Source: a virus | IMG/VR virus record: IMGVR_UViG_3300007346_000217 | Span: 1 to 24,813 of that record | Direction: 5' to 3' (one strand) | Length of the DNA stretch: 24,813 nucleotides | Shown here: positions 2,119 to 24,813 of the stretch, piece after piece | Position numbering within the stretch: position 1 is the stretch's first letter | Layout of the letters: the number at the start of each line of letters is the position of its first letter | The notes under the pieces: generated by a model | Seen by the model: only the letters and a program-made list of their open reading frames with translations | What the model was told of the DNA's origin: nothing | Database searches by the model: none | Made by a program: the position numbers and the translations under genes

Positions 2119-2126
2119 TATTTATT
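2119..2126 (-). promoter_or_regulatory. T4-late-promoter-like octamer AATAAATA
   Basis: AATAAATA on the coding strand lies just past the end of the HTH gene and 28 bases before the start codon at 2090. It matches the NATAAATA core of T4-like late promoters and belongs to a set of eight boundary sites in this window. Confidence 0.4.
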
Positions 2127-2137
2127 AGCGCAAAACA

Positions 2138-2476
2138 CTACTTGTCGTCCCAGGGAAGAATAGTTGTATCATCATCACTAACTGGATTATCACTGTAGCC
2201 CAGTAATTGTTTTGATAACCATATCTGAATGGTAGCGTTGTCTTTTTCACAAGCATTACGCATCATTGCTCTGCGTAATTTGATTTTACCACCGGCTAAT
2301 CCTTCTTCGTATACGTCTCTGTAGTTGCGCTCTATTGTATCACTGCTTACACCCATAACATACGCAACTTCTTTTAGTGAGCAATGTAACTCAGCCAGTT
2401 TGCGTATCTGATCTTTGTCTAATTCAATTTTTGGGCGTCCGCCTCGATTCTTCTTTTTTACTGTCTCTTCTGACAT
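2138..2476 (-). CDS. HTH DNA-binding protein, terminase small subunit-like
   Basis: A 112-residue protein. A basic N-terminus with GGRPK leads into a helix-turn-helix at about residues 22-52 (LAELHCSLKEVAYVMGVSSD, then TIERNYRD), and a basic helical segment KIKLRRAMMRNA follows. The stretch IWLSKQLLGYSDN is the end signature common in small HTH proteins annotated as terminase small subunits, which bind packaging-initiation DNA and regulate the large subunit. Here it lies about 20 kb downstream of the portal rather than beside it, and no large terminase is in the window, so a regulatory HTH protein is the alternative. The start at 2476 has GAGGGGAAG upstream. Confidence 0.55.
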   Translation of the reverse strand: MSEETVKKKNRGGRPKIELDKDQIRKLAELHCSLKEVAYVMGVSSDTIERNYRDVYEEGLAGGKIKLRRAMMRNACEKDNATIQIWLSKQLLGYSDNPVSDDDTTILPWDDK

Positions 2477-2508
2477 TGTCTTCCCCTCTCACGCCTTGGG
2501 TAGGCTGT

Positions 2509-2652
2509 TTAAAATATTGCTGTATAAACTTTATACAACAGATATCCAGCATAGTGAATAAATGCTAAACTCATTAATGCGTTTAACAATACCACACAAT
2601 GGCGGATATGTTTAATTGTAATCATTTGATTGTATTCGTTACTTTCTTTCAT
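2509..2652 (-). CDS. Small single-span membrane protein (47 aa), unknown
   Basis: This 47-residue frame has a polar basic N-terminus (MKESNEYN, then IKHIRH) followed by a continuous hydrophobic helix at about residues 19-45 ending at IF. One membrane span with a positively charged leading side predicts the N-terminus in the cytoplasm. It occupies the otherwise empty gap between the 137-residue gene and the HTH gene. The ribosome site is weak (AGGGTAAACGACA before the ATG). Together with the neighbouring XhlA-like protein it might take part in lysis, but I see no diagnostic motif; a superinfection-exclusion peptide would look the same. Confidence 0.5.
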   Translation of the reverse strand: MKESNEYNQMITIKHIRHCVVLLNALMSLAFIHYAGYLLYKVYTAIF

Positions 2653-2729
2653 TGTCGTTTACCCTGTATTTAGTTAAATATAGTTGAGCATCCAAGTGTA
2701 TCCGGGGGGTTATACATTTGGGGTTGCTC

Positions 2730-2762
2730 CGGGGAGTTGAGTCCGTCTCACTCCCCGTTTTT
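2730..2762 (+). terminator. Perfect 8-bp hairpin with T5 tail on the plus strand; overlaps a minus-strand stop codon
   Basis: CGGGGAGT (2730-2737) pairs perfectly with ACTCCCCG (2750-2757), with extra GAG/CTC pairing inside. On the plus strand it is followed at once by TTTTT, a rho-independent terminator form. On the coding (minus) strand there is no T tract, and the TGA of the 137-residue gene lies inside the stem. It would stop antisense transcription, or act as a processing or stability hairpin for the mRNA. Confidence 0.5.
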
Positions 2763-3161
2763 GTCTAATTGGACTAAAACTAGACTGTTTTTTACCAGCC
2801 AATCAATTGGCTCACCCGGATCAATTAGGATTGCTCTGCTATCCCATATAACACCAAATTCATAACTCAAATGTCTAAACAATTCCATTAGTGTGACATA
2901 GGCATCATACTGTTTACGATCGATGCCAGTGTCAATGCTCTGTAACATGTCATAACAATACATAAAGTTTGCCTGATCAAGTAGTGCGTCTCCAATACCA
3001 GTATGCTCCATCATGTCGTCAAAACTTGGATATTGATCTGCTAGTGTTTTAAGCGCATCTCTAAATTTAGTAATAACAGTTATCACTATAGTTGCGTTTT
3101 GTGGATTGTAAAACTGGAAATTTTCCTGTTTATCCCAGAATCCTTCAGTTGCGTGTGACAT
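2748..3161 (-). CDS. Unknown phage protein, 137 aa
   Basis: I do not recognise this protein. It is acidic, mostly helical by composition, without membrane segments, and has an aromatic-rich middle (NFMYCYDMLQ). An ATG at 3173 could add four residues, but the ATG at 3161 has GGAGG five bases upstream, whereas that motif lies inside the longer version, so I chose 3161. The gene overlaps the upstream basic 130-residue gene by 17 bases, which implies translational coupling. Its stop codon lies in the hairpin at 2730-2757. Confidence 0.6.
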   Translation of the reverse strand: MSHATEGFWDKQENFQFYNPQNATIVITVITKFRDALKTLADQYPSFDDMMEHTGIGDALLDQANFMYCYDMLQSIDTGIDRKQYDAYVTLMELFRHLSYEFGVIWDSRAILIDPGEPIDWLVKNSLVLVQLDKNGE

Positions 3162-3537
3162 TACCACCTCCACTTGCTATGGTTTTGCGTGTAGTGCGTC
3201 TTTTGATTACTACTTCTACACCGGGTTTGTCGTGTGTTAGTGGTTGTAATTTGCGCTCTAGTCGCTTTAATTCGTTTAATTCCTGTTTAAACTTAATCTG
3301 TTTTTTATTTACAATATCAAATACTCGTCTAGCCTGATAACGTGCTAGTGGATATAAACTGTTTTTTGCTCGTGTATTAATAGTGTATACAATTCTTTGT
3401 TGATCTATGTCTCCTCTGGTTGCCACTGTCTTACAGGCAAAGCGTAACCATTTGAGGATAACCTCTCGTTTTTCCGCTTGTTTGTGTGTTGAAACATACT
3501 TCCACCATTTGCGAAAGCGTTTATCGCTGTGTGCCAT
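3145..3537 (-). CDS. Unknown basic phage protein, 130 aa
   Basis: A very basic 130-residue protein rich in Lys, Arg and Trp at the N-terminus (FRKWWKYV), with a predicted long charged helix at about residues 75-100 (KKQIKFKQELNELKRLERK). It has no membrane segment and no family I recognise. The charge suggests nucleic acid or membrane-surface contact, but this is inference. The start at 3537 lies 4 bases after the upstream stop, with AAGGAG nine bases before it and GATAAATA 23 bases before it. Confidence 0.55.
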   Translation of the reverse strand: MAHSDKRFRKWWKYVSTHKQAEKREVILKWLRFACKTVATRGDIDQQRIVYTINTRAKNSLYPLARYQARRVFDIVNKKQIKFKQELNELKRLERKLQPLTHDKPGVEVVIKRRTTRKTIASGGGNVTRN

Positions 3538-3540
3538 TGG

Positions 3541-4113
3541 TTAATCTCCTTTAGTTGTAGTATTTATCGAGTATTTAAACTCACTGTTTGTCACTGTGTT
3601 AAGTCCAGTATCCACTCTATCTGTGACAAAGAATACGGCTGTGTTTACGCTGTCCAGTGCTTGCTCAATGCCCTGTCTGTGACTGCCTCGTGTGCTTGCT
3701 CTACTGACGTTGTTGTTTTTACGGAATGGATAGTCATATACATTATTACCTGTATCGTCTTCAGGATTGAGTATTCCATTAAAACCAACGCAATATATGT
3801 CTTCACCGGGGTGTAAGTGATGTGCTAGTCCTATAGCAGTGGCACCGGCATTGCCCCATTCACAGGGTAATGTTTGCCAGTAATCCCTTAATTCCTCTGC
3901 TCGTCTGTTTTGTAGATATCTGTCCTTAGTCCAGAAAGGGATATCTGTTTTAGTTGTGTTGTGTTTGTTGATGTAATGTAGTGCTTTTCTGTCAAATATC
4001 ACACAATGATCTAAATCCCAGTTTTCATATGCCCTATTACATCCAATCAATATGTGATTGTCAAGTGGATGCCAATTTAAACTATCTGGGTGATTACCTA
4101 TAACTATAACCAT
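3541..4113 (-). CDS. DUF115/CST-I sialyltransferase-like protein, 190 aa
   Basis: The N-terminus VIVIGNHPDSLN resembles the gNGPSL loop of DUF115 (MptE-like) and CST-I-type glycosyltransferase folds. It is followed by ILIGCNRAY (residues 21-29), a strand ending in D41 (HCVIFDR), and WGNAGATAIGLAHHL plus IYCVGFNG (about 86-113), which matches the family pattern of 'nsG..Al.lA...G...IyllGfD'. Such enzymes move sugar nucleotides or sialic-acid-like sugars. The protein is shorter than typical cellular members and the C-terminal 50 residues are polar and repetitive. A role in glycosylating virions or host surface is inference. AAGGAG and an AATAAATA site precede the start. Confidence 0.45.
   Translation of the reverse strand: MVIVIGNHPDSLNWHPLDNHILIGCNRAYENWDLDHCVIFDRKALHYINKHNTTKTDIPFWTKDRYLQNRRAEELRDYWQTLPCEWGNAGATAIGLAHHLHPGEDIYCVGFNGILNPEDDTGNNVYDYPFRKNNNVSRASTRGSHRQGIEQALDSVNTAVFFVTDRVDTGLNTVTNSEFKYSINTTTKGD
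3561..3568 (-). promoter_or_regulatory. T4-late-promoter-like octamer GATAAATA
   Basis: GATAAATA on the coding strand lies within the last codons of the 190-residue gene, 23 bases before the start of the 130-residue gene. A transcript from it would carry a short leader containing AAGGAG. Confidence 0.4.
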
Positions 4114-4132
4114 CTGATTACTCCTTTTGTTT

Positions 4133-4140
4133 TATTTATT
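4133..4140 (-). promoter_or_regulatory. T4-late-promoter-like octamer AATAAATA
   Basis: AATAAATA lies 19 bases before the start codon at 4113, with AAGGAG between them. The layout is nearly the same as at 3561-3568. Confidence 0.45.
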
Positions 4141-4318
4141 TCATCTTAAACCTCCAAACTTCGTTTAGAGGAAACATCAACTTCATCTGTTATCGCTATC
4201 GCTCTAACATCTTCAGTTGTGTTTAGTTTACTTCGAATCGATTAGATATAAAACATATGATTTATTTGATGTCTGTTAAGACATCGAAGTGATTATATAT
4301 TACCACGAAATTTTAGTC

Positions 4319-4344
4319 ACACTAAGCCTGATTTGGCTTAGTGT
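4319..4344. repeat. Perfect 10-bp inverted repeat with 6-base loop
   Basis: ACACTAAGCC and GGCTTAGTGT are separated by TGATTT. No T tract follows on either strand, so this is not a standard terminator. Direct copies of ATATTACCAC flank it at 4297-4306 and 4353-4362. Confidence 0.7.
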
Positions 4345-4533
4345 AACCTGAAATATTACCACTCATCTCAGTCAATACAGATTAGTCAACCCTTACGGGA
4401 TTAGGTAGGTTTTGCTATCACCTTTTACGACTACACTTGGACGCAGGGTGTGTATGCCTACTGTATAAAACATACACTCCTTCCAGGTTATTAGTGTCAA
4501 TAGAGCCTGGTCACTTTCTTTATTCCTGGGTGG

Positions 4534-4905
4534 TTAGTCCCAGGGCACCTCATCATTAGTGCTACGCTGGTTAACATCTGTTATTACCACAGGTGCTACC
4601 ATCGTTTTTGTGTGCTCCTCGTCGGATGCTTTTTCCACAGCGGTATTACTATCTGGCCCGCTAACCTTATGTGATGATTTGAATACCCAATTCATTAGTT
4701 TATCAAATTGGTATTGTTTTAATTTGCCTAGATTGTCAGTGCCATAATATTTTAGTGCCAATGCTTTTGCCCTTGCTTCTAATTGTTTGCCATGTTTTGT
4801 TTCTTTTTTTGCCTTGTTAGCATATTTTATAACAGCAGGAATTGATTGTTGAATTCCTGCCTGTGCTATTTTATATGCCCGATCTTTGCCAGTAAATTTT
4901 GCCAT
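4534..4905 (-). CDS. Unknown phage protein, 123 aa
   Basis: Not recognised. The N-terminal 75 residues are Lys/Ala-rich and helical, with a positively charged face (KYANKAKKETKHGKQLEARA). The C-terminal third is polar and acidic and probably disordered. There is no membrane segment or Cys. The only ribosome-binding candidate is AGGCAAAT, some nine bases before the ATG. The consensus sigma70-type promoter at 4962-4990 lies about 50 bases upstream, so this gene is probably its first target and may be expressed apart from the structural operon. The last codons lie in a CCTGGG/CCCAGG hairpin. Confidence 0.6.
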   Translation of the reverse strand: MAKFTGKDRAYKIAQAGIQQSIPAVIKYANKAKKETKHGKQLEARAKALALKYYGTDNLGKLKQYQFDKLMNWVFKSSHKVSGPDSNTAVEKASDEEHTKTMVAPVVITDVNQRSTNDEVPWD

Positions 4906-4956
4906 TGTCTATTTGCCTGTATTAGCCTATGTAAGTGCCTATTAAAATGCCTAATA

Positions 4957-4974
4957 TCAGTATTATAATACTGA
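4957..4974. promoter_or_regulatory. 18-bp perfect palindrome over the -10 box of P3 (operator candidate)
   Basis: TCAGTATTATAATACTGA is fully self-complementary and is centred on the TATAAT of the promoter at 4962-4990. A dimeric repressor bound here would block RNA polymerase. Its half AGTATTA resembles the AGTGTTA half of the P2 palindrome. Confidence 0.55.
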
Positions 4975-4990
4975 ATATAAAATATGTCAA
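4962..4990 (-). promoter_or_regulatory. Consensus sigma70-type promoter P3
   Basis: On the minus strand TTGACA (4985-4990) and TATAAT (4962-4967) are separated by exactly 17 bases. Both hexamers match the bacterial housekeeping consensus perfectly. The expected start near 4955 leaves a leader of about 50 bases before the 123-residue gene. It overlaps the end of the 51-residue gene region and an 18-bp palindrome. Confidence 0.75.
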
Positions 4991-4992
4991 CA

Positions 4993-5148
4993 CTAACATT
5001 TCTCTAACTCATCAGCGATCTCTACTTTAACACCTAAACTGTCCACTGTGATCCAGTCAAGTCGCTCTTTTAGATCGTCTGGAATGTTTGCTTCAATGTA
5101 TTTGTCATATTCGTATAGTGCCTTCATTACGGCTTCTCTTTGTGTCAT
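4993..5148 (-). CDS. Small acidic phage protein, 51 aa, unknown
   Basis: The ATG at 5148 overlaps the stop of the upstream gene (TAATG), with GGAG seven bases before it. The 51-residue product is charged and helical (MTQREAVMKALYEYDKYIEA) and ends in Lys-Cys; no membrane span. Its coding character is supported by the coupling, the ribosome site and the balanced composition. Function is not recognisable. It would be co-transcribed with the 119-residue gene from P2. Confidence 0.65.
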   Translation of the reverse strand: MTQREAVMKALYEYDKYIEANIPDDLKERLDWITVDSLGVKVEIADELEKC

Positions 5149-5507
5149 TATTTGTCTCCAAAATCAAATAGGTCATGTAAAATTGCGCTTCTAGCGTCAT
5201 ACCTAATATGGCTATTGATAGTGATTAACATTTGATCCCTGTCATCAACTTCTGTCAAAATTGTTGGCATTGAATCACCATGTATTTGAGTTTTGTCCTT
5301 GGGCATTAGTTTAACATCTTTAAGAATAAAACCATGTCCTGCTAAACTACGTTTAACAATATACTGCCAGTTAGTGTAATTTCGCATCGTCGGATCAACA
5401 TATGTATTGTATTCATTACCGTTAAAGTCCATGAATTCGATTTCATAGATTAAGCCACTGTGATGGCGAGATGATGATTTTTTGATGTCTAGAATAAAAA
5501 CTTCCAT
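5148..5507 (-). CDS. Unknown phage protein, 119 aa
   Basis: I place the start at 5507 (MEVFILDIKK), where AGGAG lies seven bases upstream. The frame is open to 5576, but the extra N-terminal codons run through the P2 promoter and a palindrome and lack a ribosome site. The product is soluble, with alternating beta-like segments (SGLIYEIEFMDFNG, NTYVDPTMRNYTNW) that suggest a small alpha/beta or OB-like domain. Nothing catalytic is visible and I do not recognise the family. It is the first gene after P2 and is coupled to the 51-residue gene. Confidence 0.6.
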   Translation of the reverse strand: MEVFILDIKKSSSRHHSGLIYEIEFMDFNGNEYNTYVDPTMRNYTNWQYIVKRSLAGHGFILKDVKLMPKDKTQIHGDSMPTILTEVDDRDQMLITINSHIRYDARSAILHDLFDFGDK

Positions 5508-5535
5508 TGTATTTCTCCTATTTTTAAAAAGTTTT

Positions 5536-5555
5536 AGTGTTACTATAATAACACT
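5536..5555. promoter_or_regulatory. 7-bp inverted repeat overlapping the P2 -10 box (operator candidate)
   Basis: AGTGTTA and TAACACT are perfect inverted halves separated by six bases that hold part of the -10 box of P2. In RNA it could also form a leader hairpin. Confidence 0.5.
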
Positions 5556-5572
5556 TTTATTTATCTTGTCAA
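5545..5572 (-). promoter_or_regulatory. Sigma70-type promoter P2
   Basis: Minus-strand TTGACA (5567-5572) and TATTAT (5545-5550) have a 16-base spacer, 5/6 at -10 and 6/6 at -35. The -10 is embedded in AGTGTTATTATAG, similar to P1 (AGTGTATTATAAG). It lies at the downstream edge of the structured region and would drive the 119- and 51-residue genes. Confidence 0.6.
5558..5565 (-). promoter_or_regulatory. T4-late-promoter-like octamer GATAAATA inside the P2 spacer
   Basis: GATAAATA lies between the -35 and -10 boxes of P2, 50 bases upstream of the start at 5507. If both are used, the same gene would have host-type and late promoters. Confidence 0.35.
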
Positions 5573-5600
5573 GCAAAAAAGCAAGACGTTTTGGTTAAAG

Positions 5601-5700
5601 TGAAGGGATTGTTACGGCCATGAAAAAAATATATTGGATTATATTAGAGTCTCTAAACTTAACGGAGAATAGAGATGCGAAGTTTGTAACAATCCCTTCA
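5601..5700. repeat. 100-bp segment bounded by 15-bp perfect inverted repeats
   Basis: TGAAGGGATTGTTAC at 5601-5615 returns as its exact reverse complement at 5686-5700. No duplicated target site is seen at the edges (AAAG versus ATAT), so a MITE-like insertion is not supported beyond the terminal repeats. Confidence 0.75.
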
Positions 5701-5767
5701 ATATTATTTAGTAAAAGTGGTAGCGTGTATAGCAATGGAGTCCATAAGACTGTGTTTTTTAAGGAGT

Positions 5768-5812
5768 CCCATATTCGGCTGGCCTTGTTTCAGGTAAATT
5801 ACCGAATATGGG
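5768..5812. repeat. 11-bp perfect inverted repeat with 23-base loop
   Basis: CCCATATTCGG (5768-5778) pairs with CCGAATATGGG (5802-5812). It is nested inside the 8-bp pair 5725-5732/5817-5824. Confidence 0.75.
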
Positions 5813-5893
5813 CTGTCTATACACCCAGTGGCTCACTGCCTTGCGGCGTGATCGTCATTTGAAAAGTGGATAACGTTACCAGCGTTACTAAAC

Positions 5894-5901
5894 TATTTAT
5901 A
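5894..5901 (-). promoter_or_regulatory. T4-late-promoter-like octamer TATAAATA
   Basis: An exact TATAAATA lies on the coding strand, just after the -10 box of P1 and at the upstream edge of the structured non-coding region. Confidence 0.4.
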
Positions 5902-5906
5902 CTCTT

Positions 5907-5934
5907 ATAATACACTAAACTGTTGATTTGTCAA
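5907..5934 (-). promoter_or_regulatory. Sigma70-type promoter P1
   Basis: Minus-strand TTGACA (5929-5934) and TATTAT (5907-5912) are separated by 16 bases, embedded in AGTGTATTATAAG; TATAAG at spacing 19 is an alternative -10. The -35 lies in the last codons of the 158-residue gene and within TGTTGATTTGTCAACA (5921-5936), a 6-bp inverted repeat that could be an operator. The transcript would begin with the structured region. Confidence 0.6.
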
Positions 5935-6391
5935 CACTTTTTTTAGGTCTACCAGCACCGGGTTTGTTAGTCCTACCTATACCACTTCCGTGCTGGTAAA
6001 TCCAATCTTCCGGATTTTTACTGCTCATTACTTCAAGCCACTTGCGTGGATCACGTCCCAGTTTACGCTCAATACCACTGACACGGATACCAGCAAAATC
6101 TTTGTTTACACTTATACTTACACAATCACTAAAGTGTTTCCAAGCCTTTAATTCTGAGTGTGTAGCAGTTGTTGCTACTAGATACCAGCCTTTGTGACAT
6201 TCCCTTAATACAAATGGCATCACGATAAAAGCACCGCCCCGACCCACTGGTAAATCTTTTGTTGTTTTAGTGGCAAAAAACCATCTATAGGCTTGATGGC
6301 TATTTCTGCCCTGATAATTAGCATTTAAAAAGTTTTTTAAATATGTCAGAGTCACGGCTGTGCTCGGGGGTCTATAAACTATCTTTCTCAT
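5915..6391 (-). CDS. Unknown phage protein, 158 aa
   Basis: A basic 158-residue soluble protein rich in aromatic residues (AYRWFFATK, KGWYLVATT), with a low-complexity C-terminal tail containing GAGRPKKS, an AT-hook-like basic patch. I do not recognise the family. It follows the fibre gene with 9 bases between stop and start, and AAGG overlapping the fibre stop serves as ribosome site. Genes in this position after a fibre often encode fibre chaperones or receptor-associated proteins, but nothing here proves it. Its last codons hold the -35 of P1. Confidence 0.6.
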   Translation of the reverse strand: MRKIVYRPPSTAVTLTYLKNFLNANYQGRNSHQAYRWFFATKTTKDLPVGRGGAFIVMPFVLRECHKGWYLVATTATHSELKAWKHFSDCVSISVNKDFAGIRVSGIERKLGRDPRKWLEVMSSKNPEDWIYQHGSGIGRTNKPGAGRPKKSVDKSTV

Positions 6392-6400
6392 TGTTATACC

Positions 6401-8122
6401 TTAACTTGCTGTTGTATCGGGATCGTGGCTTAACTTCCAGTTAGTGCCGTCATAGAATACTAGACATTTACCACTGGTTACTGTGCTTTCGTCTGTGACA
6501 TACGCTGTAGCACCTGCGCTAACATTTGTGGGTAGTGTGCTTACTGTGTAACTGGGTAACACAACGGGTTTGTCTGATCTAGTCTCTTTTCCAGTTAACT
6601 TTAATTCATTTAATCTTGTAGTGTCATCATGACTACGCACATCCAGTGCTATACTATTGTCAATTTCTGTGGTGTCATATTCATATGTGATTCTACCAAC
6701 CATTAGATATGATTCACTGTCACTACGCACACCAAATTCCCATTTGCCTTCAACACCATCTGGCACTGTGCTGGCGCCATTATCTAGACTGCTCTGGAAG
6801 AATGCGTGTGCTGTTTCACCATTAAGCACAGCATTCATAATTACATTCTTTTGATAAAAACTAGCATCTGGATTTAGGAATTCTGTTATACCATTTATGT
6901 AGTTGTAGATGTTATTATCACTGGGCCTCATTCTAAAACTTGCTAACTGTGTGACAGTTGCGCCAGTGTCATCTGTTGCGTTAATATCAAACTCTTTATA
7001 TGTGCCATTGTCTCTGGCTGTGTTAGTAATCAACCAGTTTTCTGTGCCACCTGTTGTTTCATGTTTAAAAGCAAGTGTTACACGACGGGTTGTGTTGTTA
7101 GTAATTTTGTTTAGCACTAGGTTTCTTACAGCATTCTGAGCATTACCACTCAAGCCCTGTGTGTTTGTTGCTATTACAGCGCCAATGTCTGTTGAGCCTG
7201 TTGCTGTTGATATGTCAATACTACCTGTGCCAGTAATGCTGTTAGTGTTTAAGTCTAGGTCACCACCCAGTTGTGGAGTTGTATCATCAACTAAATCTGT
7301 CATTAGTGTGCCAGTTTGACCTGGTAGCGTAAGTGTATAATCGCCGCCGCCTGCGGCTGTTAGTGTAGTTGTATCACCATAAATTGGAGGATTAGATGCT
7401 GGGGTTGATGTCTCAAACACAAGATCACCACCACCAAGATTTGTTATAACAATGTCACCATCACTCTCAAATCCAGCCGCCGCAAAGTTTGTATTAGTAA
7501 ATATTTTGTCAATATTAGTGCCAGCAACAGCGTCCTGTGCTTCAAAGTATTTGTCAGCACCACTACTGCCGTCTCTAACGTAAATTCTATTTTCTACTTC
7601 TAAGTCAGTTACATTGTTGATGTCAAATGTCTGTGCGTCTAAATCACCACCCAGTTGAGGTGTTGTGTCGTTTACAATATCAGTAATTCCAGCGGCACTT
7701 GCTTCTAAACTTATAAGCCCTGTTGCGTTATCATAAGTTAAAACATAGTTGTCTTGTCCTGATCCTACTGTTTGATCTACGTCAAATACTAAATTACCTA
7801 ATACAACATTACCTGTGCCATCAGGTGTTAGTGTAATATCGCCATTGCTTGTTGAAATAATACTGTTAGTATTAACATCCAAGTCACCACCCAGTTGTGG
7901 ATTTGTATCCTCAACTACTGCTGTAATACCTGTATCTGTATCGGTGGCTATAACCCAGTTAGCACCATTATATTTTAGAATACTGTTTGTTGTAACACCT
8001 GTGGTGTCTACATCGGCAAGATCATTAATAACAAGATTGCTGATAGATGTGTTTAGTGATGCTACGTCACCTTGGCTACTGCTACTAATTGAGCCGTCTG
8101 CGCCTAGTCTAATAGTTGACAT
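6401..8122 (-). CDS. Tail fibre protein with three internal repeats, 573 aa
   Basis: The repeat (D)TTPQLGGDLD appears at about residues 72-82, 152-162 and 278-288 (DNA 7259-7291, 7641-7675, 7881-7915). Between copies are beta-helix-like strings such as SNGDITLTPDGTGNVVLG. This pattern is typical of fibres in aquatic phages: repeated triple-beta or beta-helical shaft segments with a receptor-binding C-terminal half. The C-terminus ends in a short FYDGTNWK motif common as a trimerisation or tip cap. There is no chaperone/peptidase domain. The product would trimerise at the tail tip and bind the host surface. It follows the J-like gene by 10 bases, with AAGGAG before the ATG. Assignment as fibre is strong, receptor unknown. 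Confidence 0.75.
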   Translation of the reverse strand: MSTIRLGADGSISSSSQGDVASLNTSISNLVINDLADVDTTGVTTNSILKYNGANWVIATDTDTGITAVVEDTNPQLGGDLDVNTNSIISTSNGDITLTPDGTGNVVLGNLVFDVDQTVGSGQDNYVLTYDNATGLISLEASAAGITDIVNDTTPQLGGDLDAQTFDINNVTDLEVENRIYVRDGSSGADKYFEAQDAVAGTNIDKIFTNTNFAAAGFESDGDIVITNLGGGDLVFETSTPASNPPIYGDTTTLTAAGGGDYTLTLPGQTGTLMTDLVDDTTPQLGGDLDLNTNSITGTGSIDISTATGSTDIGAVIATNTQGLSGNAQNAVRNLVLNKITNNTTRRVTLAFKHETTGGTENWLITNTARDNGTYKEFDINATDDTGATVTQLASFRMRPSDNNIYNYINGITEFLNPDASFYQKNVIMNAVLNGETAHAFFQSSLDNGASTVPDGVEGKWEFGVRSDSESYLMVGRITYEYDTTEIDNSIALDVRSHDDTTRLNELKLTGKETRSDKPVVLPSYTVSTLPTNVSAGATAYVTDESTVTSGKCLVFYDGTNWKLSHDPDTTAS

Positions 8123-8132
8123 TCAATTCTCC

Positions 8133-9584: not shown

Positions 9585-9586
9585 TT

Positions 9587-10108: not shown

Positions 10109-10124
10109 TTGTTTTCTCCAGGGG

Positions 10125-10685: not shown

Positions 10686-10693
10686 TTGCTATC

Positions 10694-15055: not shown

Positions 15056-15066
15056 CTTGTGTCTCC

Positions 15067-18000: not shown

Positions 18001-18357
18001 TGTTGGCTCAATACCAGCACCTTTTAGTTTAATAAAGGTCTGTGTTAGGTCTTCGACACCAAACTGTGTTTGTGTAGCAAACTTTTGGATAAACTTAAAT
18101 GCTTCACCACCATCTTTAGCACTGCCTGTAACAGTGTCAAGTGTGTCTCTGAAATCCTCAAATTTTGCTGTGGTTTGGACAATGTTTCTTACAACACCAC
18201 CCGTAAGGAAGCCGGCGAAGGCCGCACCAGCAAGTTTAAGTGTTTTGTTTACACCTTGTGCTTGCTTGTTTAAGCCTTCGACGCTCTTTTCTATTTTTCT
18301 CAGTGGACCACTAGATTGGTCTACTGCTTTAACAATTAATTCATATGTCGATGCCAT
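15067..18357 (-). CDS. Tail tape measure protein, 1096 aa
   Basis: The length, the helical and Ala/Gln-rich composition, the central hydrophobic segments (about residues 370-422), a coiled coil at about 840-910, and a C-terminal Gly-rich SIVGEKGPELFVPN motif are all typical of tape measure proteins, which set tail length and exit into the host envelope. A frame extends to an ATG at 18402, but I choose the ATG at 18357 (MASTYELIVK): it follows the frameshift product's stop by one base, has AGGAG eight bases upstream, and begins with the usual short strand before KAVDQSSG. The 45 extra bases code for the end of the chaperone in another frame. Expected tail length by the common 1.5 angstrom per residue rule would be about 160 nm. 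Confidence 0.92.
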   Translation of the reverse strand: MASTYELIVKAVDQSSGPLRKIEKSVEGLNKQAQGVNKTLKLAGAAFAGFLTGGVVRNIVQTTAKFEDFRDTLDTVTGSAKDGGEAFKFIQKFATQTQFGVEDLTQTFIKLKGAGIEPTQKLLTSFTDVAAVTTDQIGTLNAVTDLFSRTTSGGLGLEELNRLADRGVPVFKMLEDQLGITRNEVSEYGKTAEGAKSITEALLRGINQNFGGATQKKMDNLSTAMSNFGIAVTNAAARLGDKFRPQLTGAIADATKFIEANDELIEALGDGLGQAITSSVGAIKLIAQNIELVSTAAQAVLAVKLFQYFGNVTKQLGRFLVSLSATTVALGKNNVQLSVAQTRMLAFGTAVNKTGKSLVTFGAILASPFKSLFGLLSGLATRLGLVTAAGIALAKVGPLLLNPWVAAIAAIGATVYGLFKYFEDTAIQIADVNTNVGEVVGALWWKTTEYIKGIWTDVVNYFGEKTTQIGNYLSEVWTLIKENFKTAMAPISSIWAVILSTVTDYAKTLANKVIGSFVFIYGAVKDTIFGIPDLFLASFNAVKATVLEFAAGIAGTFSNIGSAIKQALSGDFEGAMATATQNAFSNMGGVIDAELKKVADAAPDYGKIAGDAFGTDYVAAAGDRLNGLYINVTGFAQDAATKTIEAWNGVKAGVSETIKGIGTSIATTVKEYRQHNYEVNAAAGLYDLYDDAALRAARGLGQFNEEIKKTTESQDPLTKVTKTYADFLKELRATIDENVQTAQWQNQAYKELTAEYNAGKLSLTQYREAMSLLNKEFQDPSIDLYQQYLKNVVDSASASAREIGFAAMAKQDLKKQLDEGKISLDVYAEAMKSLTGTTTKEKTETEKIIDSIKEKNKQIDNLTKNLKKVSELAKQSGIDETVLQEALQKRLDTLNEVGEKSKSIAETINESFKKAADGLSRSLAQGLAKGKLSLNSFKDFFNQILEDILQAIIQKNLTDPLVAGLTGGSAGGGLGGILGSLFGTPTVGAPMGGLDFGGFFSGIGSFLGFANGGVPPVGRASIVGEKGPELFVPNTSGRVIPNDDINMGNGGTTNITFEINAVDTQTGVEFLLKNKPQIIGMVSQAQNQRGRQGITS

Positions 18358-18358
18358 A

Positions 18359-18870
18359 CTAGCGTCTCCTAGGTTGTTTGTTGGCTCGCTTATTTTGCTC
18401 ATTTAAGTAAGCAAAATATTCTGCCCAACCACGCACTTCTACGCTACTCATTGACATAACTTCTTCAACAGTCTTGCCCAATTCTGTTGCTAACCTAAAA
18501 AGGAATAGCACATCGGGCATGTTTTTTAGTTTCCCAGGCTGTCTTCCAACTCCTGAGTCGCTTCATTAAATGAAGTTACAACTCTTAGAATTACCTGTGG
18601 ATCAACTGCTCTCATAAGTTTTAGTTTATCACTCATATCAAATAATTGGTTGCCATCTTTGTCTCTGGCTCGCATAATAAGTGTAACAACTAATGCCTCT
18701 GTTGTTTTACCCTGCTGTGTCAACTCAATTACTTTTGTTTCTTCAGCAAGTGTAGTGCTTGGTTTAAAATATACGTCTGTATCCCACTCTGGGACACTGA
18801 TTGGACCTTTAAGGCCCTGTGCTAACACTTCTTCGAAGTGCGCTGTTGCTTTGTCAATTAATTTACTCAT
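18359..18870 (-). CDS. Tail assembly chaperone, long form by programmed -1 frameshift (170 aa)
   Basis: The short product (18526-18870, 114 aa) ends SLGN with the codons GGA AAC TAA. The slippery heptamer GGGAAAC (18529-18535) covers those codons. A -1 slip continues for 56 codons to a TAG at 18359-18361. The extension contains FRLATELGKTVEEVMSMSSV and RGWAEYFAY, the usual Leu/Trp pattern of the second chaperone domain (lambda GT, HK97 gp14/15). These proteins bind the tape measure and recruit tail tube subunits, with both forms needed at a fixed ratio. Lambda uses GGGAAAG, one base different. I see no strong pseudoknot after the site. The start overlaps the upstream stop (ATGA). Confidence 0.85.
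18526..18870 (-). CDS. Tail assembly chaperone, short form (114 aa)
   Basis: This is the unshifted product. It is acidic, starts with a helix (LIDKATAHFEEVLAQG), has the short beta-hairpin VPEWDTDVYFKPSTT, then helices to the end, as in lambda G-like chaperones. It lies directly before the tape measure, where all long-tailed phages keep this gene. Confidence 0.8.
   Translation of the reverse strand: MSKLIDKATAHFEEVLAQGLKGPISVPEWDTDVYFKPSTTLAEETKVIELTQQGKTTEALVVTLIMRARDKDGNQLFDMSDKLKLMRAVDPQVILRVVTSFNEATQELEDSLGN
18529..18535 (-). promoter_or_regulatory. Slippery heptamer GGGAAAC (programmed -1 frameshift site)
   Basis: On the minus strand G GGA AAC is in the correct X XXY YYZ phase to the short chaperone frame and lies immediately before its TAA. 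Slippage by one base leads into the 56-codon conserved extension. Confidence 0.85.
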
Positions 18871-19169
18871 AATCTTGTCCGCCTCATTGCTAATCGCGAA
18901 ATTACAGGCTCAAGTATGCCTCTCGGCGCTTGCCTACTATAACCTCTATCTAATAAACCAATATATGGGACTTTGTTTTCAATCACCGTCTGGTCTCTCC
19001 CTAAGTTATAACTCCCCACTTTTCGCCACCCTCTGGCGGCTCTTCCAGTGCGGATGGGGGTTGCCTGTTTCGCATTTGTATTTATGTCCGTTAAAAGAGT
19101 GTCAACGGCACGCTCAATGCTTCTGTCGAGATCTTTTAAGATTACTCTTGGATTACTTGAGCGCACCAT
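18867..19169 (-). CDS. HK97 gp10-like tail completion/neck protein, 100 aa
   Basis: TPIRTGRAARGWRKVG followed by NKVPYIGLLDRGYSRQAPRG (about residues 37-85) is the signature of the HK97 gp10 / tail-completion family: a TG(R)-x-W strand, then 'N.vpYi..le.G.s.qap.g'. Members form a ring between the head and tail or cap the tail tube. It overlaps the chaperone start by four bases. Its place after the tube gene instead of before the tail terminator is unusual. Confidence 0.75.
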   Translation of the reverse strand: MVRSSNPRVILKDLDRSIERAVDTLLTDINTNAKQATPIRTGRAARGWRKVGSYNLGRDQTVIENKVPYIGLLDRGYSRQAPRGILEPVISRLAMRRTRL

Positions 19170-19183
19170 CGACTATTCACTCA

Positions 19184-19627
19184 TTAAGCCGCGTATGTCA
19201 TATCGCCAGTGCCTTCAAAGGCAATGGAATATTCAACTGCGCCGTCAAAACTAGCACTTCTTGAAATGCTTGTAACGATAGCACTGCCGCTGTAGTAACT
19301 TGAGCCAGTCCCTGCTGGGTATAACTCAAAGTCAATTGTATCACCAGCCTTAACGTCTGGAGTTGTGCCTACTACGTCGCCTGGGCTACTAGTTGTATCA
19401 GCATCATGACCCAAGTTAGTGTCATTAGCCTCCCAATAGCCGTCAACTGTGCCAGAGAAACCTCTGAAAGTTGATAGAATAGCACGTGAAGTATCTCCCA
19501 TGCTAGTTACATCAATAGTCTCTGTGGTTTCTTCTAGACTAAACGAAGTGACATTAAGTAGTGCCACAGTTGTGCCACCAGTTGGAGCGACTTTAACAAC
19601 GCCCTCTACACCTTTTGTTTCTGCCAT
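19184..19627 (-). CDS. Major tail tube protein, 147 aa
   Basis: A 147-residue beta-rich protein without Cys. Features are VEGVVKVAPTGGTTVALLNV, the typical E-TIDVTSMGD segment (about 32-46) and the fluctuating FRGFSGTVDGYWEA strand (about 53-66). All are family marks of phage tail tube subunits, which stack as hexamer rings around the tape measure. The C-terminus VEYSIAFEGTGDM matches the last tube strand. The expected high expression agrees with a good spacing to GGAATAAACA. It precedes the chaperone region as expected. Confidence 0.85.
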   Translation of the reverse strand: MAETKGVEGVVKVAPTGGTTVALLNVTSFSLEETTETIDVTSMGDTSRAILSTFRGFSGTVDGYWEANDTNLGHDADTTSSPGDVVGTTPDVKAGDTIDFELYPAGTGSSYYSGSAIVTSISRSASFDGAVEYSIAFEGTGDMTYAA

Positions 19628-19670
19628 TTGTTTATTCCTTTGTTATAACAAATAAAACGCTCTTGCGTTT

Positions 19671-20096
19671 TTAAGCATTACCACGGTCGTAGTAATACTT
19701 TACCGTATATACGATTGCCGCTTGACCATATGGAGCAGTTTCAGCAATTTCTCGGATAATCACCTCTGAAACTCCACTGTTAAAAGCATTGCCACCCATA
19801 CTGGGATCTAGTGCTAATTTTTCTTCTACTGCTTCGATAATAGCATTTCTGTTAGTATCTCTGTCATTGCCGTAAACGACAATGTTTAGTAGAAAATCCA
19901 GTGTTGCTTCGCGTCTGACTTCTCCACTGAAACTAGCGTCTTCGCGGACTTCATTGGCTGATTCAACCAATACATGTGGAAAACTAGTAGCGGCTAGTTG
20001 TCCTAAGTCCTTGGGCTCCCTAGTAACAGTCTTGATACTGCCTACTGTCCCCAATTGGGTAACAATATGTGCCGCAATATCTTCTCGCTTGCTCAT
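19671..20096 (-). CDS. Tail terminator-like protein, 141 aa
   Basis: A 141-residue alpha/beta protein: N-terminal helix (REDIAAHIVTQLGTV), a strand VLVESANEVRED, LDFLLNIVVYGND, an amphipathic helix IIEAVEEKLALD, and a final IVYTVKYYYDRG strand. This order matches the gpU/tail terminator fold, which caps the tail tube after it reaches full length and joins it to the neck. It is placed between the connector and tube genes. ATGA coupling joins it to the upstream gene. The family call rests on fold pattern and position. Confidence 0.65.
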   Translation of the reverse strand: MSKREDIAAHIVTQLGTVGSIKTVTREPKDLGQLAATSFPHVLVESANEVREDASFSGEVRREATLDFLLNIVVYGNDRDTNRNAIIEAVEEKLALDPSMGGNAFNSGVSEVIIREIAETAPYGQAAIVYTVKYYYDRGNA

Positions 20097-20539
20097 CTGT
20101 AAATCCTATCCTGTCTGTGCTTATGCTTTTCAGTGCGACTGATTGTGCCATCGTTGTTGAGATCATACTCAACACCTTTGCCAATTTCCAGGTCCATCTC
20201 CTCGTGGAATCTTTCCCTGTAAAAGTCAATCATCTCTCTGAAAGTGTCACCACCCACAGCAAAAGGACTCAAAGTTGGGAGGATATGGGCATATAAAGCA
20301 CGATACACTGTGGCACGAGTCCATTGTGTATCAGTCAACAGCGTCGCATCCATTTCGCTACCTACGGCACGGCCAATTTGGTCAAAACCCTGTGTAAAGG
20401 TTTTGTTATACCAGTTAACTTCCAACCAACGATTTACATCGTTTTCTGCTTCTGCTAACTGTGTTGTCCAGTCAGTTACCCCATGATTCATGATGGTGCT
20501 AACATATTGCGTTAGGTCACTATTAGTTGCGTATGCCAT
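20093..20539 (-). CDS. Head-tail connector protein with C-terminal EF-hand-like loop, 148 aa
   Basis: This mostly helical 148-residue protein begins with YATNSDLTQYV, as the gp6/SPP1 gp15 connector family does. It has a long helix with Trp residues (about 24-44, WTTQLAEAENDVNRWLEVNW) and another with the portal-facing RATVYRALYAHILP (75-88). It should form the first ring below the portal. Residues 126-137, DLNNDGTISRTE, fit a complete calcium-binding EF-hand loop: D1, N3, D5, T7, S9 and E12, with G6 and I8. The neighbours support the connector role. Confidence 0.7.
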   Translation of the reverse strand: MAYATNSDLTQYVSTIMNHGVTDWTTQLAEAENDVNRWLEVNWYNKTFTQGFDQIGRAVGSEMDATLLTDTQWTRATVYRALYAHILPTLSPFAVGGDTFREMIDFYRERFHEEMDLEIGKGVEYDLNNDGTISRTEKHKHRQDRIYR

Positions 20540-20556
20540 ATCCCTGTCCCCCTATA

Positions 20557-21420
20557 TTAAAGAGCCGCGTCAGAAGTAATTTTGACGATCTTGTTTTGGT
20601 CAAGAATACCAGCACCGAAAGCGGCACTAGCAACAACTTCGAAACCACGGATTGATTCATCACGCTGAAGAGCAATACGAAGATCACGCTTCAATGTCAT
20701 ACCAATCGCCGCAGGATGGAATACAGCACTGATTGCGTCATTACCAGAATCTGTGTCGATTGAAGCAGATTCGTAAATGTCGATACCAGCCACTGTGCCC
20801 AAATAGTAACTACGAGCAGCAGCGTTTGCTAAATCGTTAGCACTGAATTGACCACCTGAGTTTAGGATAGTCTTCTTAAGGTTGTAAGCAGCAAGTGGGT
20901 GGACAACAGCAACCAAACCTGTCATTGGCACACTGTTGTTACGAAGTGTAGCCGCAGCCTTAAGGATGTGGTCGATTGTCATTTCTGCGCCTGCGCCTGG
21001 ACCTACGTCTGTAGAAGCACTTGTGAATAGGTCTACAACAACTTCGTCCATTGCTTGAGCAACGGCATCACCAAGCACACGACCTACGTCTTGTGCCACT
21101 GCTAGTGGTGAGGACTCAACTACGATGTCCTGGATAGTTGCCATTGAGCCGTATTCAGCGGCTGTGATGTCTACTGCTGTAGCAGCAACATCTGTGTTAG
21201 AAAGGTCAGCACCAGCAGTAATTGCTGTTAGACCTGTTACACGTGGCCATACAGGCACTGATGCTGTAAGACCTGGTGTGCCTACCATGTTGTAAACTGT
21301 TACCAGGTTACGAAGTAGGGCGTTTTCGTTAAAAGTAAATTGGGCACTCTGTGTGACGTTTTCAAAAAGTTGACCTTCTGAGTTACCGCCGCCTTGGCCC
21401 GCATCTAATTCATTTGCCAT
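20557..21420 (-). CDS. Major capsid protein, HK97-like fold, 287 aa
   Basis: At 287 residues and rich in Ala and Val, without Cys, this protein follows the scaffold gene and ends before the connector. Features in order are a flexible Gly-rich N-terminus, FNENALLRNLVTVYN, a long helix AVAQDVGRVLGDAVAQAMDE (about 106-125, the spine helix of the HK97 fold), then VVHPLAAYNLKKTIL (P-domain) and YLGTVAGIDIYES (A-domain). There is no protease gene; a separate scaffold is used. AAGGA lies eight bases before the start. Codon use is more even than in neighbours, as expected for a highly expressed gene. Confidence 0.88.
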   Translation of the reverse strand: MANELDAGQGGGNSEGQLFENVTQSAQFTFNENALLRNLVTVYNMVGTPGLTASVPVWPRVTGLTAITAGADLSNTDVAATAVDITAAEYGSMATIQDIVVESSPLAVAQDVGRVLGDAVAQAMDEVVVDLFTSASTDVGPGAGAEMTIDHILKAAATLRNNSVPMTGLVAVVHPLAAYNLKKTILNSGGQFSANDLANAAARSYYLGTVAGIDIYESASIDTDSGNDAISAVFHPAAIGMTLKRDLRIALQRDESIRGFEVVASAAFGAGILDQNKIVKITSDAAL

Positions 21421-21435
21421 GATTTAAATCCTTCT

Positions 21436-22131
21436 TTATACTGTTTTAAAATTCCTTGTATTCCCAACCGCATATTTCTCTTTAAAGATTTTTCTATGCT
21501 CAGGGTTGCTCATATCAAGGTCAGATAACTTAACTTCTCTTGAAGTTGTGTGTTTTACATTTCCACTACTGCCACTTCCACTTGGGTTAGCAGTCCTGAA
21601 ATATGCGTTTTGCGTTAGAAACTCTTCCACTGCTTGATCTACACTAACTGGTAGAGCATTGTTGGTGTCATATCTAACATTTCCGTCTGAATCAATTACT
21701 TCAACTTGTCCGCTTTCATTTAAACGCACAGCAGACTTCATTAACTGAGCCACATGCTCCGGATTAACTGCTTTATGCTTGCTTGCCGCATTCAATAAAG
21801 CGCCATCAATCTGGACACGCTGTAATTCATTTTGAAGTTGAGTAATACGGCTATCCGCTTCACTCTTTTGCTTTTGTAGTAATTCCTCAAACTGATTCTT
21901 TTTCATCATCTCTGCTTCTCGTGCTTGCTCTTGCTGTGATTTCAGAGTCTGATATTCCTCAATATCAATGCCTTCAAATTTACGCTCTACCTGCTTTAGG
22001 CGGTTAGCAATAATTCTGTCAACATCTTCCTGAGTAAATGTTTTTGTTTCCTGGTCTGTTAAGTTACCTGTTTCCACAGCGGCACCAGTAGCCTCTGTCA
22101 CAGTATTATCGATGTTTGTATTATCGTCCAT
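21436..22131 (-). CDS. Capsid scaffolding protein, 231 aa
   Basis: The protein is acidic, with a disordered N-terminus, then a motif FTQEDVDRIIANRLKQVERK (residues 32-51), which is the usual opening of phage scaffolds of the DUF4355/minor structural GP20 type. A strong coiled coil follows at about residues 55-110 (KSQQEQAREAEMMKKNQFEE, then further Gln/Glu heptads). The C-terminus is basic and could bind the capsid protein. The scaffold would fill the procapsid and leave before packaging. It lies between portal and capsid genes. GGGAG is nine bases before the ATG and a TATAAATA site lies 67 bases upstream. Confidence 0.8.
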   Translation of the reverse strand: MDDNTNIDNTVTEATGAAVETGNLTDQETKTFTQEDVDRIIANRLKQVERKFEGIDIEEYQTLKSQQEQAREAEMMKKNQFEELLQKQKSEADSRITQLQNELQRVQIDGALLNAASKHKAVNPEHVAQLMKSAVRLNESGQVEVIDSDGNVRYDTNNALPVSVDQAVEEFLTQNAYFRTANPSGSGSSGNVKHTTSREVKLSDLDMSNPEHRKIFKEKYAVGNTRNFKTV

Positions 22132-22176
22132 CTTAAACGTCTCCCTCGAAGGTTAGTTAAACTTTGGGGGTTTATC

Positions 22177-22190
22177 TTAAACCGGTTTAA
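22177..22190. promoter_or_regulatory. 14-bp perfect palindrome before the scaffold gene
   Basis: TTAAACCGGTTTAA is fully self-complementary and sits in the 70-base gap between portal and scaffold, downstream of the TATAAATA site. It could be an operator or a short hairpin. Confidence 0.45.
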
Positions 22191-22198
22191 CTGTATGT

Positions 22199-22206
22199 TA
22201 TTTATA
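22199..22206 (-). promoter_or_regulatory. T4-late-promoter-like octamer TATAAATA before scaffold/capsid
   Basis: TATAAATA overlaps the portal stop codon and precedes the scaffold and capsid genes, where extra late transcription would be useful. The leader would be about 60 bases and contain the palindrome at 22177-22190. Confidence 0.5.
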
Positions 22207-23662
22207 CAGTGCCTTCCCCGGGCACTGTTACGCCCATTGAGGCGTGGTCTTCCTTGATTTCATCCAGGATTGGTTGTAAATCCTCTTCCTCAGTAATGAG
22301 CAAGCGGGCAATCTCATCGTGGATGTAATGTTGGAAACTGTTGTGTGGCACTAATTCAAGTGCCTTCTTGTATAATTCTAAATCAGCGTGTTTATCACGT
22401 AGGTCGAAACTGTCCTCATATTCCACATGGAAGTCGTCGTCTGGTTGGATGTCTTGCCAAGCAAAAAACATTTTCCAGATCTTCTTTTCTGCGTCTTCGA
22501 TCATCATACTATAATCGCTGAGTTTAGCATTTAACATTTCTCTCTCTACCTGTAGACTAACTCCGCTTTGTGGTGTATTACGCACTGCTTTGATAGCACT
22601 TAGGTGAGTCATTTCATTGATAGCATCTACTTTCTGCTGAATAGCATTTAGAATACTTTCAACACTAGCACCTGTTGGTTGTAACAAATAAGGCTGAATG
22701 TTGGTATTTTCAGTTACAGTGATAATCGCACCTGCTCCACCATTTACTTCTGTGCTGGGCTCAGCAACAATACTTGGGTGGCTTGACAAGCGGATACTCT
22801 GATACAATTCACTAGTTAAGTTGTAGATCTCACGTTGGATATCACATACATCGCCAATTGGGCTTGTGCCGATACCTTTGTGAAAACTTTTGTCTGATTG
22901 GACATGAATAAATGGCACCCAACCTAGTGGGTTAGCAAATTCTTCATAGTTAAGTATCTCACCATACTCACTAATGATGTTGTCATTGTTAGCAGTAGTG
23001 TCACCATAGGTTAATCCATTACTGGTGCTGGCATAATCTTTTTTGCTCACTGTGTATACTTCAACACGGTCAGGATACCAGCAACGTAGGACATCATAAT
23101 CAGCATATGATTCGTCAACTACGCAGATGTAAGTGAGTTTGCGTTTGCCGTTAATCATACGCTCATAACGCCAATTACGCACATTGGTTGGATTGTATAA
23201 TGTAGTAAACGCACGAATGCCCATGTCTATTTCCTGGGCTAGTGTATCAACTTGATATGATGGGCGATCAACGCCTACCCATGATCCACCATATATAATT
23301 ACCATATCCATAACTTCACGCATAAAATGGTCTAATTCTGTGCCATCTAAATCTGCGTTTTCTTTGAATTCCATAACAAACGGATCGTCAACAAGTTTAC
23401 CTAAACTACGAGTTGGCTCATTACGGAAGATAAAACTTCTATAAGCGTCTACTGTTTGTTTAACGTGATTTTGTAATGCTGTATCCAATAGTCTTTGTTT
23501 GTATTGGTTGCCAGGTGCTTGGTCTTCAGCAATATACTTTCTTAAATAGGCACCATCTCTATATTCTTCTGCTCCCATATAGGATCTCATATAGTAGTCC
23601 CAGCGAAACAGATATTCAGCATAGCCATTGTGGACTTTGCGTAAATCTTCTATTTGTAACAT
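22202..23662 (-). CDS. Portal protein, 486 aa
   Basis: A 486-residue protein of the usual siphophage portal size and acid/aromatic balance. Features are an N-terminal clip entry with YLRKYIAEDQ and YKQRLLDTALQNHVKQTVDA (about 41-73), then FRNEPTR, typical of DUF4055/SPP1-like portals. A segment NPLGWVPFIHVQSDKSFHKG is followed by GDVCDIQREIYNLTSEL (about 267-283), the wing and stem helix region; ending with LLITEEEDLQPILDEIKED (tunnel and crown helices). Twelve copies form the DNA gate and docking site of the terminase. The start has GAGG seven bases upstream. The upstream region contains two NATAAATA sites. Confidence 0.88.
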   Translation of the reverse strand: MLQIEDLRKVHNGYAEYLFRWDYYMRSYMGAEEYRDGAYLRKYIAEDQAPGNQYKQRLLDTALQNHVKQTVDAYRSFIFRNEPTRSLGKLVDDPFVMEFKENADLDGTELDHFMREVMDMVIIYGGSWVGVDRPSYQVDTLAQEIDMGIRAFTTLYNPTNVRNWRYERMINGKRKLTYICVVDESYADYDVLRCWYPDRVEVYTVSKKDYASTSNGLTYGDTTANNDNIISEYGEILNYEEFANPLGWVPFIHVQSDKSFHKGIGTSPIGDVCDIQREIYNLTSELYQSIRLSSHPSIVAEPSTEVNGGAGAIITVTENTNIQPYLLQPTGASVESILNAIQQKVDAINEMTHLSAIKAVRNTPQSGVSLQVEREMLNAKLSDYSMMIEDAEKKIWKMFFAWQDIQPDDDFHVEYEDSFDLRDKHADLELYKKALELVPHNSFQHYIHDEIARLLITEEEDLQPILDEIKEDHASMGVTVPGEGTV

Positions 23663-23670
23663 TTTATATC

Positions 23671-23705
23671 CTCAATTGAGTGTTGTTTTTACTGACCGTC
23701 GGTCA
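23671..23705. promoter_or_regulatory. Two small palindromes in the portal leader
   Basis: CTCAATTGAG (23671-23680) is a perfect 10-bp palindrome and contains the ribosome site GAGG on the minus strand. TGACCGTCGGTCA (23693-23705) has perfect 6-bp halves around one base. The second looks like a dimer-binding operator; the first may hide the ribosome site in a hairpin. Confidence 0.4.
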
Positions 23706-23743
23706 TAGACATAGTGTCCTTGGTGAGCAATACCAATATAATG

Positions 23744-23751
23744 TATTTATG
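23744..23751 (-). promoter_or_regulatory. T4-late-promoter-like octamer CATAAATA before the portal gene
   Basis: CATAAATA lies 81 bases before the portal start and downstream of the 9-bp hairpin at 23762-23783. No -35 box is needed for T4-type late promoters. Confidence 0.45.
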
Positions 23752-23761
23752 CCAGAAGAAT

Positions 23762-23783
23762 GGGGATCAGTCACCTGATCCCC
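23762..23783. repeat. Perfect 9-bp hairpin in the gap before the portal
   Basis: GGGGATCAG and CTGATCCCC are separated by TCAC. No T tract follows on either strand. It might protect the 5' end of the portal mRNA or mark a processing site. Confidence 0.65.
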
Positions 23784-23813
23784 GAGTGCGAGGTTACCAT
23801 AAAGTAACAGTAT

Positions 23814-23821
23814 TATTTATA
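23814..23821 (-). promoter_or_regulatory. T4-late-promoter-like octamer TATAAATA right after the terminator
   Basis: TATAAATA follows the T tract of the terminator at once, so a new transcript for the head and tail genes could start where the previous one ends. Confidence 0.5.
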
Positions 23822-24691: not shown

Positions 24692-24813
24692 CACGCTGCC
24701 TCCAGTTTGGATTGTTTCTGTAATGTTAACTTTTCTTCAGTTAGTTGTTGGACTAACTCAATTCTGGCTGGTGAAGCCATCAATTGACCCAGTAGATAGA
24801 GGTCATAATTGAT
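24691..24813 (-). CDS. C-terminal fragment of an unknown gene (runs off right edge)
   Basis: The frame is open from the window edge to a TGA at 24691-24693, giving 40 residues (YDLYLLGQLMASPARIELVQ and a charged Lys/Gln-rich helix after it). The stop overlaps the next ATG, so the gene is coupled to the ART-like pair. No family can be named from this piece. Gene order in other phages would allow a terminase or an accessory gene here. Confidence 0.6.
   Translation of the reverse strand: MNYDLYLLGQLMASPARIELVQQLTEEKLTLQKQSKLEAA

Follow-up and report, generated by a model that had tools for sequence, protein, structure and literature searches.

ATAAATA motifs with a T4-late-like layout at the operon heads of small aquatic siphophages

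The phage fragment, its relatives and the placement of ATAAATA

The window, by which we mean the entire 24,813-base virus record analyzed here, is a fragment of a siphovirus genome whose coding strand is the - strand and is A-rich (34% A, 26% T). It encodes a portal, scaffold, major capsid, neck, tail chaperone, tape measure, tail tip and fibre protein, along with a terminase-small-subunit-like protein, a holin-like protein (a label derived from position and weak evidence) and many products that could not be assigned; this 24.8-kb fragment yielded no large terminase gene. Two tandem genes at 192-908 and 1070-1822 both match phrog_8198. The adjacent small proteins encoded at 23958-24410 and 24380-24694 have an ADP-ribosyltransferase/KptA-like appearance, a call that for the first derives from weak Pfam matches below the cutoff and for the second was made by eye, and similar-looking genes are present in the relatives G004 and G014.

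A search with the major capsid protein gathered 64 partly redundant loci, and these relatives, which are mostly metagenomic, stand in for the missing rest of the genome; the sites they contain share ancestry and are not independent of each other. The deposited relatives are phage DSL-LC06, a circular lake metagenome assembly of 29.8 kb deposited as complete with a predicted host in the Pseudomonadota, and four pelagiphages (HTVC026P/111P/112P/202P) of similar size recorded with cultured hosts. A further three relatives appear to be complete circles, 24-28 kb in size (G002, G013 and G014; loci L074-L075, L082-L083 and L084-L085), completeness being judged from their ends only: G002 has a 77-bp exact terminal repeat, G014 a 91-bp terminal repeat, and the ends of G013 overlap each other within G012. 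The genomes that carry the gene g3145 (the window, G002, G004, G005, G009 and G010) are referred to below as clade A, and G006/G007/G012/G013/G014 as clade B. When the window, G002, G004, G010, G013, G014 and DSL-LC06 were compared all-against-all, the clusters common to all seven genomes were structural ones and the small terminase, with the large terminase common to the six genomes other than the window.

The heptamer ATAAATA occurs ten times in the window, always on the - (coding) strand and never on the + strand, exactly where and in the orientation that a preliminary description of this DNA had placed it. The total is ordinary when set against dinucleotide shuffles of both strands (10 vs 8.5 expected), and the excess is confined to the gaps of the coding strand, which contain 7 copies against 0.9-1.2 expected, a count that 0/1000 gap shuffles reach; the gaps of the template strand contain none. 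ATAAATA is the most frequent 7-mer of the window's gaps, and genes contain 3 copies against 4.2 expected under codon shuffling. Some of the strand bias follows from the A-richness of the coding strand, which does not, however, account for the excess in gaps. The preliminary description had put the sites in gaps or in the last codons before the next gene, with just two copies inside genes. Seven are indeed intergenic or in contact with a stop codon, and the copy at 3561 falls in the final codons of the gene before it, but by our count three copies are in genes (3561, 15219 and 19079). The individual sites and the features around them are collected in Table 1.

Table 1. Motif sites, sigma-70 promoters, leaders and candidate regulatory genes in the window
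Feature	Coordinates	Strand	Remarks
TATAAATA	23814..23821	-	distal candidate portal promoter; +1 predicted at 23808 (T-1/G+1)
CATAAATA	23744..23751	-	proximal candidate portal promoter, 81 nt upstream of the start codon; predicted transcript start near 23738
Structured portal leader	23663..23739	-	three hairpins, the first with a TGCTC loop and the last adjoining the Shine-Dalgarno sequence
TATAAATA	22199..22206	-	candidate promoter of scaffold/capsid operon, overlaps stop codon of portal gene; start predicted near 22193
Structured scaffold leader	22132..22194	-	outer stem P1, inner hairpin, CCCCC(AA), Shine-Dalgarno sequence
CATAAATA	19079..19086	-	within the neck gene; putative internal promoter serving tail genes; T-1/G+1
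g5915	5915..6391	-	family with C-terminal HTH in four relatives; HTH not recognizable in window copy
Sigma-70 promoter, TTGACA-16-TATTAT	5907..5934	-	ATAAATA (5894) just 3' of its -10
TATAAATA	5894..5901	-	in control region after g5915, directly 3' of a sigma-70 -10 element
GATAAATA	5558..5565	-	lies in a sigma-70 promoter spacer, with T-1/G+1 at 5552
Sigma-70 promoter, TTGACA-16-TATTAT	5545..5572	-	ATAAATA in spacer
Consensus sigma-70 promoter, TTGACA-17-TATAAT	4962..4990	-	without ATAAATA
AATAAATA	4133..4140	-	19 nt before g3541; without T/R start signature
GATAAATA	3561..3568	-	in the end of g3541, before g3145; without T/R signature
g3145	3145..3537	-	basic protein, confident four-helix prediction; only in motif-rich clade A relatives; candidate regulator
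AATAAATA	2119..2126	-	before holin-like gene; without T/R signature in window

Conservation and start-site geometry of the motif

The count against shuffles that the preliminary description had proposed for the whole genome was carried out in the window and its relatives, and both gap enrichment and strand bias were recovered. Observed over expected copies in gaps were 7/0.9 in the window, 11/2.3 in G002, 6/1.8 in G004, 6/1.6 in G005 and 5/0.9 in G010, with a weaker enrichment of 5/1.8 in DSL-LC06; enrichment was not significant in G009, in clade B (G013, G014, G006) or in the pelagiphages. Summed over the 64 partly redundant loci, the coding and opposite strands carry ATAAATA in a ratio of 153:22. 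Conservation is concentrated at particular genes. The motif lies within 100 nt before the start of the scaffold gene in 19 of 22 diverged relatives, including DSL-LC06, and within the same distance before the portal gene in 14 of 22; many relatives keep a spacing (81-88 nt) comparable to that of the proximal portal site in the window. It lies at most 100 nt upstream of the holin-like gene in 7/9 diverged relatives and upstream of g3145 in 2/3, and at most 100 nt upstream of other structural genes in just 2/195 cases. The scaffold site persists in clade B despite the non-significant enrichment there. None of the four pelagiphages has ATAAATA before portal or scaffold (0/4), and we rejected them as carriers of the motif as they show no bias.

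The copy within the neck gene is read in frame as NTA-AAT-A, and its synonymous positions are preserved among clade A relatives, where the codons are ATA for 12 of 13 isoleucines, CTA for 7 of 7 leucines and AAT for 21 of 21 asparagines; the background usage for this comparison is 20-48% for ATA and about 60% for AAT.

In an alignment of 118 dereplicated sites, nothing resembling a -35 element precedes the core, and the N position directly before it shows no strong base preference. What the alignment did reveal is a T followed by a purine (T/R) at +11/+12, counted from the first A of the core. Because the relatives share descent, we retested this step within single genomes, and found it at 10/14 sites in G002 (p 2e-6), 7/11 in G004 (p 3e-4) and 4/10 in the window (p 0.045); across five genomes ATAAATA ranks 1 of 1,707 heptamers for this step. 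The TATAAATA sites of T4 itself peak at the same +11/+12 offset (8/15). T4 late promoters consist of an 8-bp TATA box with no -35 element (PMC2988020), and a T/R step at +11/+12 would place the core at -13..-6, with the heptamer at -12..-6, which is the T4-late layout (PMC2988020). From this signature, transcription is predicted to start 5 nt downstream of ATAAATA.

The sites do not form a uniform set. Those at 5558 and 5894 overlap sigma-70 promoters, and those at 2119, 3561 and 4133 are without the start signature, so that more than one class is represented; the latter three, in which the T/R step is absent, are the least certain as candidate promoters.

Structured leaders and sigma-70 promoters

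Downstream of the portal and scaffold sites lie structured leaders, whose 5' arms begin at +11..+19 from the motif and so coincide with, or closely follow, the predicted start of the transcript. The arms of the stems change together between relatives in a compensatory manner in both leaders. Stem P1 of the portal leader forms 6.5 bp when paired within sequences vs 4.9 bp when paired between them, and outer stem P1 of the scaffold leader 7.25 bp against itself vs 5.5 bp in crosses, with 0/5000 permutations in either case. The inner stems P2 are weaker (permutation p 0.07 and 0.02), and neither leader matched Rfam at gathering thresholds. It is possible that the two leaders are regulatory RNAs. 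A 5' hairpin at every site was considered and rejected, the mean z being -0.74 downstream vs -0.53 upstream of the motif, and given this weak general signal we claim leaders at portal and scaffold alone. On the same - strand, terminator-like hairpins occur around the two candidate portal promoters at 23844-23828, with a T run, and at 23783-23762; the distal portal site at 23814 comes after the one with the T run.

A second layer of signals is formed by near-perfect sigma-70 promoters in the control region that follows g5915, in the window (5934, 5572 and 4990) as well as in relatives. ATAAATA is found in the spacer of such promoters in the window (5572), G002 and G004 (at offsets 11 and 10 in the latter two), and just 3' of the -10 in the window (5934), G002 and G005. 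Early and late promoters have likewise been described as overlapping in T4-like cyanophages (PMC2984593). At the portal, scaffold and neck sites there is no TTGACA/TATAAT pair at a spacing of 16-18 nt.

The reader of the motif and what the promoters may mean

The preliminary description had suggested that these sites are T4-type late promoters, a core recognized in T4 and T4-like cyanophages by gp55-like late sigma factors, and had noted that a gp55-type sigma would be unexpected in a phage whose head-tail genes are not T4-like. The layout and the conservation at operon heads bear out the promoter half of this proposal: like T4 late promoters, the sites have an 8-bp TATA box of the form (N/T)ATAAATA, exemplified by the shared TATAAATA, and no -35 element, they stand at the heads of the scaffold and portal operons, as T4's do at late operons, and they display, as a sequence signature, a purine after T about 12 nt from the first base of the core, corresponding to T-1/R+1 with the core at -13..-6. 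The sigma half found no such support, since searches of the window and relatives for homologues of gp55 and gp45 gave no match. The profile for gp55 (phrog_234), which recovers gp55 in T4 at 2.5e-70 as a positive control, found nothing in the 18 records formed by the window, the viral relatives G001-G016 and DSL-LC06, and sigma-70 region 2 (PF04542) was likewise without a match in these records. There was also no match to phrog_12791 in the window, G001-G010, G012-G016 and DSL-LC06, or to the gp45 clamp in nine records (the window, seven viral relatives and DSL-LC06). The window is itself incomplete, and the gp55 and sigma searches covered the complete-looking G002, G013 and G014 and the complete DSL-LC06. 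The preliminary reading was to be given up if enrichment and a late sigma gene were both missing; enrichment is present and a recognizable late sigma is absent.

The only non-structural genes shared across the compared genomes are those for packaging, so no common factor gene is visible, and the individual candidates that we considered are not persuasive. The product of g3145 tracks clade A, beyond which no relatives of it were found, but it has no sequence family or sigma match and no sigma among the Foldseek and VIA-align matches listed, and we do not claim it as the factor. Members of the g5915 family, encoded after the tail fibre gene, have an HTH that in G002 and G004 resembles sigma region 4, and a fold search with the family returned mostly HTH regulators, none below E 0.001 and with no sigma among the matches listed. 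The window copy keeps the N-terminal domain of the family and has a GRPKK tail where its relatives have the HTH. The family was set aside on account of this unrecognizable HTH, and it is further disfavored because region 4 reads -35 elements, which the motif lacks. In G002, a small protein encoded at 6832-7311 of locus L074 matches PF20661, the RNA-polymerase-binding motif of SutA, with an E of 3e-4 that falls short of the curated cut-off.

Comparable arrangements are known from other phages. T4-like cyanophages use NATAAATA late promoters (PMC2984593), and S-PM2 and Syn9 share the same degenerate octamer and the overlap of early and late promoters with the present phages, but are reported to encode g55, g33 and g45 homologues (PMC2984593). 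T4 itself differs in that our phages are small siphoviruses in which no gp55, sigma region 2 or gp45 was found in the records searched for each, and in which some sites are nested in sigma-70 promoters. For rV5, a T4-late-like motif has been reported although the phage has no gp55, gp33 or gp45 homologue (PMC3606486); that motif, TggTAaAAtA, is looser, and the passage describing it contains no start-site or conservation test.

It is extremely improbable that the sites merely reflect A-rich gap composition and chance. The near-expected total in the whole window (10 vs 8.5) and the A-richness of the coding strand would fit such an origin, but the gap enrichment stands against gap-specific shuffles in five genomes, and conservation at two operon heads and the start-site signature tell against it as well. 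Chance is refuted for the portal and scaffold sites, while the copies at 2119, 3561, 4133 and 15219 may singly be due to it. The motif could alternatively act in RNA, as an AU-rich processing site or a ribosome stand-by site placed before leaders and Shine-Dalgarno sequences rather than as a promoter. The sites at 2119, 3561 and 4133 do lie just before Shine-Dalgarno sequences, and the leaders 3' of the motif are structured. Nevertheless, the T/R step is fixed at the same offset as in T4, the motif is conserved inside the neck coding sequence and it is absent before nearly all other structural genes, which makes an RNA-level role improbable. Hence, the ATAAATA sites are very probably promoters with T4-late geometry.

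There remains the question of what would read such promoters. To our knowledge, no bacterial sigma factor recognizes a NATAAATA promoter lacking a -35 element, and this speaks against a sigma factor of the host as the reader, whether by itself or as sigma-70 redirected by a co-factor from the phage, as do the failure of a host contig search to return a match and the absence of the motif pattern in the pelagiphage relatives. With such a reader no phage sigma gene would be needed, in keeping with the lack of sigma region 2 or gp55 in the searched records and of a clamp in nine, with the absence of any recognized replication gene among the ten G002 proteins scanned with Pfam, and with the lack of a non-structural factor shared by clades A, B and DSL-LC06; the near-perfect sigma-70 promoters further point to transcription of some of the genome by host RNA polymerase. 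On balance we regard a host sigma as rather unlikely. A different source would be the late machinery (gp55/gp33/gp45) of co-infecting T4-like phages, borrowed in the manner of Sputnik. The core geometry matches the late promoters of T4 and cyanophages, no late factors of their own were found in the records searched, the scanned G002 proteins include no recognized replication gene, and there is a precedent in the small virophage Sputnik, which shares promoter motifs with the larger mimivirus, the late-promoter motif among them (PMC11998528), though helper dependence is hypothetical here. Nonetheless, the phages possess a complete complement of head and tail genes along with terminase genes, and pelagiphages of similar size with cultured hosts suggest that growth alone is possible; such borrowing appears quite improbable. 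The most likely option, which we hold tentatively, is that the core is read by a phage-encoded factor that has diverged beyond recognition.

Taken as a whole, the evidence is likely to be best explained by a dedicated, T4-late-like promoter class whose reader is not a recognizable gp55. Every sequence test has come out T4-late-like, and we do not class the sites as T4 late promoters because gp55 and gp45 were not found in the records searched for each. According to this proposal, NATAAATA would be the core of a promoter class dedicated to small (about 24-30 kb) aquatic siphophages. An RNA polymerase carrying a specificity factor other than sigma-70 would melt the 8-bp TATA box at -13..-6 without contacting a -35 element, and transcription would begin 5 nt downstream of the core, at the purine after T. 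The strongest of these promoters would head the portal and scaffold/capsid operons and feed the structured leaders, which begin at the predicted start or shortly after it. Further sites would act before the holin-like gene, within the neck gene ahead of the tail genes, and from positions nested in early sigma-70 promoters; there, ATAAATA could add to or replace transcription after a switch.

T4 late transcription has been regarded as characteristic of T4-like phages and linked to gp55, gp33 and a replication clamp. The same layout in siphophages of 24-30 kb, where neither gp55 nor sigma region 2 was found in any record searched and the clamp in none of the nine examined for it, would imply that the box is read by something else or that a larger phage is being tapped. 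It is a real possibility, though short of an even chance, that small, autonomous-looking siphophages operate T4-type late promoters without gp55, through a new factor or by parasitizing T4-like phages; if the latter were true, they would be a bacterial counterpart of the virophages.
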